NCBI GenBank assembly: GCA_028818695.1
Contig: JAPPNK010000014.1
Coordinates: forward strand, 1 to 64,000
Direction: 5' to 3'
Source of the DNA: Candidatus Poribacteria bacterium
GTDB lineage: Bacteria > Poribacteria > WGA-4E > GCA-2687025
DNA: 64,000 bases
Shown here piece by piece: positions 30,263 through 34,126 of this stretch. Both the position numbers and the translations under genes were made by a program. The notes beneath the pieces were generated by a model. It was not told the DNA's origin. It worked only from the letters and a program-made list of their open reading frames with translations, and ran no database searches. Each line of letters opens with the position of its first letter. The first letter of the stretch is position 1.

Positions 30263-31252
30263 ATGAGAAAACTGCTCATTTTGACCGCGCTGATGTCGAT
30301 GGCCGCAGGCGCCGCGAACGCGCAGCTGCCGTTTGAAGTGAAGACGATCTATTTCAAGCCGACGGACGTTCCCGAAAACACTGCGAAGGTGAAGCGGTTG
30401 ATCGAAGGGGCGCAGGAGCTCTACCAATCCGAAATGGAACGGCACGGGTTCGGCGCGAAGACCTTTCGCCTTGACCCAACCATCCATATCATTCGCGGGC
30501 AGAATAACCTGGCGCACTACAAGGAGAACACCTACAATAAAATTGAGCAGGAGCTGCCGCAGAAATTCCGCAATCAGAACAACGTCTATGCGATCTTTCT
30601 CGCGGGCGCCGACTTTGTGGAGGGCTGGCCGTGCGGGGTCGGCTGGCCCATCTTCGGATGGGCAAACGGCGGAACGGCGCTCATCGCCGAGCATAGTAAC
30701 TGCCCCGACCATGTCTCCCTTACAGCCCATGAGCTCGGCCACGCGTTCGGCCTCTATCATGACCTAACGAATCCGAAGGCGATCATGGGCGCAGGCGACG
30801 ACGAATTCAACGACTTTGAATGCCGCTGGCTTGACAAGCACCACTACTTCAACGATGTCCACCGCATCAACGATGTCCCGGATGTCTTCGAGGTTCAAAT
30901 GAAGGGCGTCAAACTGGACGGCAAGAAGTATGCGCAATTCACCATCGACGCCGGTTCCGACATCGGGCTGCATCAAGCGCATCTGATGCGGCTCTCCGAT
31001 GTGGGCGTCGTCGGCTGGGACACAACCATTCAAGGCGCGCGCGACTCGGCGGTGATCCAGACCCGAACGGCGTGGCTCGCCGGGGACGCCAGCCTAGTGG
31101 CTCAGATTCTGGACATACAGGGCAACCATTTCATGCACACCTTCCCCTACATGCCGCCGACAACCTTTGAAGGGGATGAGGAGGAAGAGCCGCCGATGGA
31201 TGTCTCAAGTGGAGGGAAGCTGCCGATCGTCTGGGCGGACTTGAAGAAATAG
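30263..31252 (+). CDS. Secreted metzincin-type zinc metalloprotease
   Basis: 329 residues. A signal peptide ends near ANA-Q21. The zinc site HELGHAFGLYHD gives H156, E157, H160 and H166, followed by a Met-turn candidate (AIMGAG, M175), the layout of metzincins. Cysteines at 124 and 147 could form a disulphide. The protein ends with GGKLPIVWADLKK, a tail shared with the three CBM9-like proteins encoded next to it. AGGAGGAAG precedes ATG 30263. A terminator follows, so it is probably monocistronic. Confidence 0.82.
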   Translation: MRKLLILTALMSMAAGAANAQLPFEVKTIYFKPTDVPENTAKVKRLIEGAQELYQSEMERHGFGAKTFRLDPTIHIIRGQNNLAHYKENTYNKIEQELPQKFRNQNNVYAIFLAGADFVEGWPCGVGWPIFGWANGGTALIAEHSNCPDHVSLTAHELGHAFGLYHDLTNPKAIMGAGDDEFNDFECRWLDKHHYFNDVHRINDVPDVFEVQMKGVKLDGKKYAQFTIDAGSDIGLHQAHLMRLSDVGVVGWDTTIQGARDSAVIQTRTAWLAGDASLVAQILDIQGNHFMHTFPYMPPTTFEGDEEEEPPMDVSSGGKLPIVWADLKK

Positions 31253-31271
31253 ACGGAACGGGGCCTTCATT

Positions 31272-31305
31272 AAAAAAGGCGGTCTCCATGATGGGACCGC
31301 CTTTT
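31272..31305 (+). terminator. Intrinsic terminator after the metzincin gene
   Basis: AAAAAAGGCGGTCTC pairs with GGGACCGCCTTTT across a short loop, followed by T-rich sequence, 20 bases after the stop. The A and T runs on either side suggest it can also serve the convergent CBM9-like genes. Confidence 0.75.
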
Positions 31306-31350
31306 GTCATTTCGTCATTCTTCCCGTAAAAACGAGAATCTTAGCGCGGG

Positions 31351-32136
31351 TCAGCGCGTTTTGAGCGTTCCCCATGAGATCGACAGCTTGTCCGCCGGGT
31401 CAACCGACGCGGGCGTTCCGACGAAGTTGACGACGTTCATCTGCGAAGTGTCTTTTCCGAAGACGATCGCGTTCGCGCCCCATCCGAGCCACCCTTTCTG
31501 CCCTTGTTGGCCAGGCTCGTCGTCCCCGTCGTTCACAATCATTCCGAATCCGATGGAGCCGCCCGCTTCTAGAGCTGTAGGCGCAATGGCGGCCGCCGGG
31601 AAGAACACTTCATAGACCGTCCGTTTTTCGGCTTCGATGCGCGCAATCGCGTAATCGTCCGCTGCGACGCCCACCGCCGCCGGCCCTGTCGCAAATTTGA
31701 GCGCCCGGCTGAATTGCGGGCTGTCGGAGTTGGGGCCGCCGAGACCGAAATTGAACTCGTACATGTTGTTGCCGCCGCCGCGTTCTGCCGTCGGATCGAT
31801 AGCGACCTGCGCCCCGTCGCCGTTCCAGATGCCGGCTCCGACGCCCGTGTTCAGATGCGAATCGTCCGTGATGTCCGCGGCGAAGTAGAGGCCGTTTTCG
31901 TCCCAGAGAAGCCAGAAGGTTCCGCTGGCGTCGTCTTCTCCGTTCCAGACGCCGCCGCCATTCGCCGTAAAGTCGGTGAGCGCAACGCCTTCAGGGACGC
32001 CGCTCCAGTCGCTCAAGTTTGCGTCTATGGTCGGCGCGGAGCCGCCTGTGTGGAAGGCGGAATACTCCTGGTCTTGCGCAAATACCGCCCCGGCAAGCGC
32101 GAATGCGCATGCAGCCGCCATCGCTGTTCGTTTCAT
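31351..32136 (-). CDS. Secreted CBM9-like protein (copy A)
   Basis: 261 residues: a signal peptide ending VFAQ, then a beta-sandwich of the CBM9/DOMON-like type (TIDANLSDWSGV, FWLLWDENGLYFAADITDD, GDGAQVAIDPTAERGG, SIGFGMIVNDGDDE). It ends VDPADKLSISWGTLKTR. Such domains bind sugars or cytochrome-like cofactors; binding specificity is unknown. AGGA lies nine bases before ATG 32136. It is the most diverged member of a three-gene tandem family. Confidence 0.75.
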   Translation of the reverse strand: MKRTAMAAACAFALAGAVFAQDQEYSAFHTGGSAPTIDANLSDWSGVPEGVALTDFTANGGGVWNGEDDASGTFWLLWDENGLYFAADITDDSHLNTGVGAGIWNGDGAQVAIDPTAERGGGNNMYEFNFGLGGPNSDSPQFSRALKFATGPAAVGVAADDYAIARIEAEKRTVYEVFFPAAAIAPTALEAGGSIGFGMIVNDGDDEPGQQGQKGWLGWGANAIVFGKDTSQMNVVNFVGTPASVDPADKLSISWGTLKTR

Positions 32137-32172
32137 ATGATGCAATCCTTTCTTGCAGTGTTGTGCCGTTGT

Positions 32173-32976
32173 TTATCGGCTCGTTTTAATGTTTGCCCAG
32201 GACGCTGCCAGCTTGCCCGCTGGATCAACGCCTAGAGCCTCTCCTGAAAGTATGAGCAGGTTTGTCTGGCTCGCGTCTTCTCCAAAAACGATGGAGTTGG
32301 CGCCCCATCCGAGCCATCCTTTTTGTCCGTCTTGTCCAGGTTCGCGGTCGCCATCGTTCACGATGAGTCCCAGTCCGATCATCGAATCTGCCTTCAGCTC
32401 GGCGGGCGCAATCTGTCTGGCAGGGAAAAAGACGAGATATTTGGTCAGCTTCCGCTCCTCCACCCGCTCGAATTCATAAGAAACTGTTTCCGGATGGAAC
32501 TCCGCAGGCGCCTCGGCATGCTGCAGTTCGCGCACGAAACTAGGCGTCGCGGAATTGGGCGCGCCGAGTCCAAAGTTGTACTCGTACATGACGCCGTCTC
32601 CGCCCGGCAGCCGCTCGCCTGTCGGTTCAATGGCGACCTGGACGCTGTCGCCGATCCAGATGTCGGCTCCAGCGTTGTTGTTCAGGTGCGAATCGTCCGT
32701 CACTTCGACCATCAGGATAAGGCCTTCTTCGTGCCAAAGAAGCAGAAATCGTCCGCTGGCGTCCTCGTTTCCGTTGTGTATGCCGCCGCCCGCTGCCGTA
32801 AAATCGTCCTTGTCCAACTCGATAAAATCGACAAATGACCACCAGGAGGCAGGATCGTCAGGCAACGCAGCCTCAGGCGCATACCGAACAACATACTCTT
32901 GATCCTGCGCCATCGCCGCTGTCATGAACGCCGCCATCGCCATCGCCGCCGCTACACGCAATCCAGATCGTTTTAT
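32173..32976 (-). CDS. Secreted CBM9-like protein (copy B), start codon apparently ATA
   Basis: About 267 residues if initiated at ATA 32976, which aligns exactly with the ATG of copy C (GGAGCGAGACG then ATA against ATG). A TTG at 32961 is the next option but lies more than 20 bases from the ribosome-binding site. The product is otherwise intact: signal peptide, DDFTAAGGGIHNGNEDASG, LMVEVTDDSHLN, WLGWGANSIVFGED and the tail GKLAASWANIKTSR. It is closely related to copy C. Whether it is expressed is uncertain; a MITE-like insertion also interrupts its upstream region. Confidence 0.62.
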   Translation of the reverse strand: MKRSGLRVAAAMAMAAFMTAAMAQDQEYVVRYAPEAALPDDPASWWSFVDFIELDKDDFTAAGGGIHNGNEDASGRFLLLWHEEGLILMVEVTDDSHLNNNAGADIWIGDSVQVAIEPTGERLPGGDGVMYEYNFGLGAPNSATPSFVRELQHAEAPAEFHPETVSYEFERVEERKLTKYLVFFPARQIAPAELKADSMIGLGLIVNDGDREPGQDGQKGWLGWGANSIVFGEDASQTNLLILSGEALGVDPAGKLAASWANIKTSR

Positions 32977-33325
32977 CGTCTCGCTCCTTCATAGAAAACA
33001 TTCTCCTATGTTATACGCCTAGACAGCTCAATTCGATGACATTCATTTTTTCCGCGGCGGCCCGCCGATCCAGCCTGTTATTTCCGCGCAAGCTGGAATC
33101 CAGAGTTTTTCCAGACAGCCTACGCATTCCAAAACGGAGCTCTAAAATCAAAATCATCGTCTATAGAGACTGCCCAATGCACAATCGGGCGTTGCCTCTT
33201 CCGCCGCATATGGTACGACATAGCAGAATGCGCCCGGCGAGATCGCTGTCGCCGCGGCATTCGCGCATGCCGCGGCGCTGTTTGTTTCATATGATCCGAT
33301 CTTTTCTTGCGGCGTCCGCCTTTGT
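32977..33325. other. Scar region: promoter of copy B, degenerate element, remnant of a fourth CBM9-like gene
   Basis: No intact gene. Bases 32977-33035 match the upstream region of copy C (34127-34175). A degenerate copy of the dispersed element (TTTCCGCGCAAGCTGGAATCCAGAG) lies at about 33055-33105. Bases 33180-33225 match 34188-34233 (CTTCCGCCGCATATGGTACGA). Bases 33230-33350 match the first codons and 5' flank of copy A (32100-32200), including TTTCATATGAT. This is the footprint of a roughly 1.1-kb tandem duplication. Confidence 0.7.
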
Positions 33326-34126
33326 TTATCTGCCTGTTTTGATGGCCGCCCAGGACGCTGCCAGCTTGCCGGCTGGATCAACGCTTAGGGATTCTTCCGA
33401 AAGTATGAGCAGGTTTGTCTGGCTGGTGTCCTTAGCGAAAACGACGGAGTTGGCACCCCATCCGAGCCAGCCTTTTTGCCCTTGTTGACCTGGTTCGTCA
33501 TCGCCGTCGTTGATGACCATTCCCATGCCGATTCTCGAATCGACTTCCAGCACAGCCGGGGCCAGATGCGCAACTGGAAAAAAGACCACATATTTGGTCA
33601 GTTTTTCTTCTTCGACGCGTTCAAACATGAAATAAAAATCATCTGTGTTCATTGGCGGCGCTTCGGGATGGTTGAACGCTCGCGCGAAGTGGGGTGTGGC
33701 AGAGTTCGGCGCTCCCAGCCCAAAGTTGTACTCATATTTGCTGAGACCCGCCCGACGTTCGCCCGTCGGTTCAAACACCACTTGGACGCTGTCGCCGTTC
33801 CAGATGCCGCCCCCAGCGTTGGTGTTCAAGTGCGAATCGTCCGTCACTTCGACCATCAGGAAGAGGCCTTCTTCGCTCCAGAGAAGCAGAAATCGCCCGC
33901 TGGCGTCCTCGTTTCCGTTGTGTGTGCCGCCGCCATGCGCCGTAAAATCATCCCTGTCCAACTCGACAAAATTGACAAATGACCACACAGCCGCCTCGGA
34001 GGCTGGATCGTCAGGAAACTCAGCCCCAGGCGCATACCGAACAACGTACTCTTGATCTTGCGCAGTCGCCGGCGTCAATGCTGCCAGAGCCAGCGCCGCC
34101 GCTATGCACAATCCAAACCGTTTCAT
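33326..34126 (-). CDS. Secreted CBM9-like protein (copy C)
   Basis: 266 residues: signal peptide to about TATAQ, then a domain nearly parallel to copy B (DDFTAHGGGTHNGNEDASG, LMVEVTDDSHLNTNAG, YEYNFGLGAPNSATPHF, WLGWGANSVVFAKD), ending VDPAGKLAASWAAIKTGR. ATG 34126 follows GGAGCGAG. A TATAAT sequence about 45 bases upstream on this strand is a likely -10 box. It is divergent from a Gfo/Idh/MocA gene, which may share its regulatory region. Confidence 0.78.
   Translation of the reverse strand: MKRFGLCIAAALALAALTPATAQDQEYVVRYAPGAEFPDDPASEAAVWSFVNFVELDRDDFTAHGGGTHNGNEDASGRFLLLWSEEGLFLMVEVTDDSHLNTNAGGGIWNGDSVQVVFEPTGERRAGLSKYEYNFGLGAPNSATPHFARAFNHPEAPPMNTDDFYFMFERVEEEKLTKYVVFFPVAHLAPAVLEVDSRIGMGMVINDGDDEPGQQGQKGWLGWGANSVVFAKDTSQTNLLILSEESLSVDPAGKLAASWAAIKTGR

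Follow-up and report, generated by a model that had tools for sequence, protein, structure and literature searches.

A short C-terminal tail on unrelated exported proteins of Candidatus Poribacteria looks like an undescribed sorting signal

The window analysed here, a stretch of 64,000 nucleotides on contig 29 of a 3.57-Mb Candidatus Poribacteria genome, encodes four proteins that finish in the same short tail. A metzincin-like metalloprotease gene on the forward strand (30263..31252) specifies 329 amino acids with a signal peptide and a Reprolysin domain at residues 41-170; its C-terminal tail, MDVSSGGKLPIVWADLKK (31193..31249, forward strand), is preceded by an acidic EEEE linker and matches at E 2e-4 a tail profile of 20 columns that we built from 52 tails. 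The reverse strand carries three CBM9-like exported proteins in tandem. The first (31351..32145; 264 amino acids; CBM9_1 E 5e-15) has the C-terminus SVDPADKLSISWGTLKTR, within which the tail PASVDPADKLSISWGTLKTR is encoded at 31354..31413 (profile E 2.5e-7). The paralogue at 32173..32961 (262 amino acids; CBM9_1 E 4e-8) ends GVDPAGKLAASWANIKTSR, with its tail ALGVDPAGKLAASWANIKTSR at 32176..32238 (profile E 9e-8), and the one at 33326..34126 (266 amino acids; CBM9_1 E 9e-10) ends SVDPAGKLAASWAAIKTGR, with its tail LSVDPAGKLAASWAAIKTGR at 33329..33388 (profile E 3e-8).

The original prediction was that the metzincin and the three CBM9-like proteins share a C-terminal tail, and all four were found as placed. 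Searched for as a DNA pattern, KLxxxW[GA]x[LIVMF]K matched the window four times, at exactly these tails, with 0.01 matches expected from shuffles (n=100). A domain search put the tails of all four proteins outside any recognised domain, CBM9_1 stopping at residue 222-240 in the three proteins of 262-266 amino acids. Because the Reprolysin and CBM9_1 borders exclude the tail, the objection that the metzincin tail belongs to a CBM9-like domain fails, and the same borders rule out the tail as a part of either the CBM9 or the metzincin domain. The metzincin, a cargo unrelated to CBM9, also has the wider consensus described below, with V at -5 and G at -1. Chance is ruled out by the shuffles, by reversed patterns and by genomes from outside the phylum.

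The motif is by no means restricted to these four proteins, so the other objection raised with the original prediction, a lack of further carriers, fails as well. The genome holds 23 matches to the same pattern and none to its reversal, and on translation every one of the 23 is followed by a stop codon 1-4 residues downstream, just as had been proposed for KLxxxW[GA]x[LI]K at the very C-terminus. With the profile we found 70 places at E<1, where chance alone would give about one; 30 of them were read, and all ended in the tail or a near variant (such as K[MAQ]xxxW[GA]x[LV]K), save for one truncated copy. A search for further carriers, suggested with the original prediction, revealed a tail that is kept throughout the phylum: all 84 Poribacteria genomes contain 16-166 exact matches each (reversed control 0-4), with a median of 99 per genome in the 81 that were tabulated. 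The 204 genomes from outside families have 0-3 matches, the same as their own controls. When a single genome of each species was scanned with a stricter pattern, in which P, G and some core positions were obligatory, at least 117 loci emerged, and 116 of 117 among the matches listed were titled Poribacteria.

The remaining locus of that scan is on a 3.8-kb contig titled Deltaproteobacteria, where the tail (L148:2639-2677) and the last part of an esterase gene share DNA but are read in different frames; the contig is likely, if not proven, to be misbinned Poribacteria. In a genome from another phylum (G153), two near-identical large proteins (L059 and L060) end in GKLTSTWGE[IL]K. They lie on small, lower-GC contigs, the longer of the two proteins being an open frame of 884 amino acids, and either contamination or transfer may have placed them there.

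The consensus of 295 unique tail proteins is [LT][APS]V[ED]PxGKL[AT]TTW[GA]x[LI]K, which is 17 residues long and usually has 1-4 further residues, commonly basic ones, behind it. Both the W and the first K are present in 100% of these proteins, having been fixed by the construction of the search; the second K is present in 99%, V(-5) and L in 94%, P(-3) in 80%, and G(-1) and T(+3) in 73%. These figures are inflated by the 117 loci from the stricter scan, whose pattern demanded P, G and some of the core. V(-5), P(-3), G(-1) and T(+3) were not demanded by the first search, and the 23 matches in the window's own genome, gathered with no requirement for P or G, yield the same consensus. Among the 295, which were chosen as ending within 12 residues of the motif, 288 have 0-7 residues after it; a sample that was not chosen by distance has the same peak, at 0-5 residues. 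In principle, so brief a terminal peptide, with its constant residues, could act as a degradation or quality-control tag for a periplasmic protease. Degradation tags normally have small hydrophobic residues as their very last ones, whereas the 0-7 residues after this motif are variable and often basic; moreover, the tail is encoded constitutively in dozens of proteins per genome and is kept phylum-wide, and we judge that role very unlikely.

A logo of 293 tails displays no hydrophobic run in or after the tail, so the tail is not a membrane anchor. This feature separates it from PEP-CTERM, GlyGly-CTERM, PGF-CTERM and LPXTG, which resemble it in being short C-terminal signatures of exported proteins but are tripartite and include a transmembrane helix. 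MYXO-CTERM (TIGR03901), which works with myxosortase in surface sorting, is phylum-universal and occurs on dozens of proteins per genome (PMC11980579), as the Poribacteria tail is and does; yet it combines a transmembrane helix with an invariant Cys and a C-terminus rich in Arg, whereas the tail has neither Cys nor helix and only some basic residues at its end. The identification of the tail as an LPXTG, PEP-CTERM, GlyGly-CTERM or MYXO-CTERM tag was set aside on architecture, no transmembrane helix following the signature. Neither Pfam nor NCBIfam models matched the tail, and an NCBIfam scan of isolated tails returned no family at E<10; one Pfam match, to PF19969 (E 0.046), was under its cut-off and was taken as noise. 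No paper in the collection searched contained core strings of the tail.

The carriers are overwhelmingly exported proteins. In a home-made heuristic test for signal peptides, used in place of SignalP, 257 of 271 complete tail proteins (~95%) passed, compared with 245 of 759 control ORFs, a set that includes spurious frames. A lipobox with its Cys was present in only seven of the 257, and the possibility that the tail proteins as a class are lipoproteins was rejected on that count. One tail protein (L094:1851-2951) starts with a Tat-like RRRFLG motif, which suggests that the tail may act after export by either route. The cargo peptides of bacterial microcompartments and encapsulins are also short and terminal, and Poribacteria reportedly possess microcompartments; this reading is already disfavoured because the tail proteins have signal peptides, with ~95% bearing export signals, and its probability is vanishingly small.

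The exported bodies to which the tail is attached are diverse, as well as small (median length of tail proteins, 262 amino acids). Stripped of their tails and compared by BLAST, they form 36 clusters at E<1e-5 and 28 at 1e-3, counts that hinge on the sensitivity of BLAST, and some of the clusters may share jelly-roll ancestry. Pfam matches in 78 members comprised LamG (8), CBM9 (6), 3-keto-disaccharide hydrolase (4), PKD (3), cohesin (3), Kelch (2), NPCBM (2), DUF362 (1) and others. The largest cluster, dominated by LamG, takes in 131 of 257 sampled tail proteins, a concentration that might be expected if the tail were hitchhiking as the remnant of a single, much-duplicated ancestral family. 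We consider such shared descent highly improbable: the same 17 residues recur in 36 clusters whose bodies have no detectable similarity, and the linker and body are unconserved beside a near-invariant K-L-W-K. Four genomes (G022, G045, G079 and G082) have an expansion of LamG-type domains, with 20-88 copies each, most of which, in the sample that was read, belong to small tail-bearing proteins.

Structure prediction places the tail apart from the body that it follows. The AlphaFold2 model of a LamG tail protein has a mostly confident beta-sandwich body (pLDDT mostly 85-95) and an undefined tail, with pLDDT below 50 at tail residues 233-246 and a six-residue helix at the W; a model of a window CBM9 protein, built from four sequences, reached pLDDT 49 and was too poor to use. 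Docking of the tail as an amphipathic helix was not supported by a moment test, in which the helical moment of its core (0.30) was at the level of shuffled cores (0.29); the strand-like moment was 0.39 against 0.29. A tail that is predicted to be detached from the fold would suit a docking peptide, dockerin-like in role, by which small sugar-binding or enzyme modules clip to a surface scaffold. Carbohydrate-binding folds abound in the cargo (LamG, CBM9, 3-keto-disaccharide hydrolase, NPCBM), and a few tail proteins contain cohesin-like domains. However, no candidate scaffold, with its receptor domains in repeats, came to light, and cargo with no connection to carbohydrate, such as the metzincin and the DUF362 protein, bears the tail too; scaffold docking is on balance unlikely.

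The original prediction had interpreted the tail as a sorting, anchoring or processing tag and had proposed looking for it on many unrelated folds, on proteins with signal peptides, and in the company of a protease or translocon. The occurrence of one terminal sequence on unrelated exported folds (36 clusters, with LamG, CBM9, PKD, Kelch and metzincin among them) is what is generally looked for in a C-terminal sorting signal, and the 257 signal-peptide-bearing carriers bear out the second expectation. Both translocon and protease are represented by components of the T9SS, namely SprA, PorV and PorU. Fold diversity, signal peptides, phylum-wide conservation and these T9SS parts together favour the tag interpretation.

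SprA_N was detected in 75 of 81 Poribacteria genomes, nearly always in one copy. In the window's own genome the divergent SprA/Sov-like gene lies on contig 2 (L218:7540-14145), and SprA-like relatives are found at loci L220-L229. A protein of about 2150 amino acids matches the SprA/Sov model TIGR04189 at E 1.7e-43, below the curated cut-off of that model, and the two relatives that were tested gave E values of about 1e-42. Neither the SprA sequence nor its profile had a meaningful match among PDB sequences. The SprA-like gene of the window's own genome is followed (L218:14942-19619) by a cell-division cluster, named by eye, of rsmH, ftsI and murE-like genes. C25 proteases, which are PorU-like, and PorV are each present in 80 of 81 genomes, most genomes having 2-3 PorU-like and 1-5 PorV-like genes. 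The C25 proteases tested matched PorU (NF033707) at E 1e-106 to 6e-129, one of them above the cut-off, and each one that was read has a type A CTD at its C-terminus. The classic type A CTD itself occurs in 81 of 81 genomes. Kamke et al. (2014), working from single-cell genomes, described T9SS CTDs in Poribacteria and reported finding no structural genes of the system (PMC3909097); the divergent SprA, PorV and PorU detected here bear on that open question.

The T9SS type A CTD (TIGR04183/PF18962, Por_Secre_tail) resembles the tail in being C-terminal, in occurring on many folds of Sec-exported proteins, and in sharing its genomes and, among LamG cargo, even homologous carriers. Type A CTDs are Ig-like domains of about 100 residues that are recognised by PorV, and the T9SS signals known so far are domains spanning about 100-235 residues (PMC12618676). 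The tail, in contrast, has about 17 residues. As the original prediction had it, the tail is unlike LPXTG, PEP-CTERM and T9SS tails in sequence, matching no CTERM or CTD model; TIGR04183 and PF18962 found nothing in the four window proteins or in six isolated tails. Judged as type A substrates, the tail proteins have the signal peptide and belong to genomes with SprA, PorV and PorU; the CTD-model match is absent. That the T9SS can recognise different C-terminal signals is established (PMC12618676), the precedent being the type B CTD (TIGR04131), which is served by PorP/SprF shuttles. At 150-235 residues the type B CTD is also far longer than the tail, and PorP/SprF gave weak matches in 15 of 81 genomes only; the type B shuttle, not being general in Poribacteria, was rejected as the route for the tail.

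Tail and CTD divide by protein size, as among LamG proteins. Of the sampled LamG ORFs of up to 450 amino acids, 62 of 69 have the strict tail at their C-terminus and most of the remaining seven a variant of it, while a classic T9SS CTD ends three of the four that made up the sample above that length. Homologous LamG domains in the same genomes have the short tail if the protein is small and the classic CTD if it is large, and this interchange suggests a shared destination. The most likely route, proposed tentatively, is that the tail marks a second substrate class of the divergent T9SS of Poribacteria. It could instead be a T9SS-independent anchor, with a Poribacteria-specific outer-membrane or S-layer-like receptor holding the small proteins and the T9SS serving only the large ones with CTDs. 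The division by protein size is consistent with this alternative, as are the lack of an Ig-like CTD or TIGR04183 match in the proteins scanned and the lack of correlation between short-tail and classic-CTD copy numbers (Spearman 0.17, p 0.13, 81 genomes). So too is the finding that in SprA-bearing genomes outside Poribacteria (n=56) tail counts are at background, which eliminates the tail as a general T9SS signal. Against an independent anchor stand the swapping of signals on LamG proteins, the failure to find a candidate receptor, and a supply of PorU-like and PorV-like genes that would suffice for a second substrate class; we regard it as a credible but doubtful alternative.

Whichever route is taken, we think it probable that the tail serves Candidatus Poribacteria as a short C-terminal sorting signal, probably without fixed structure. 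Sec, or rarely Tat, would export a small protein, which would fold in the periplasm with the 17-residue peptide displayed at its very end. A dedicated receptor in the outer envelope would then bind the tail through its near-invariant K-L, W and K, and would position or keep the cargo in the outer envelope or at the cell surface; recognition by the receptor and placement at the surface are the steps that we infer. If the T9SS is the route, small proteins would use the tail where large cargo have the Ig-like CTD of roughly 100 residues. The full scheme, in which sorting confined to one phylum relies on a helix-less, domain-less peptide of about 17 residues, read by a putative outer-envelope receptor on about 100 small proteins per cell, with the T9SS for large ones, is one that we advance with some reserve.

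Poribacteria are abundant sponge-associated bacteria of which, to our knowledge, none has been cultured, so that sequence is the only source of what is known about the biology of their surface. In this setting the tail looks like an undescribed address label that directs proteins to the cell envelope or surface. Such a phylum-wide label would single out, in each genome, about a hundred proteins that probably belong to the envelope, among them sugar-binding modules and proteases that are likely to meet the host, and, if the interpretation is true, it would be a C-terminal sorting signal with an architecture not described in the literature that we found.
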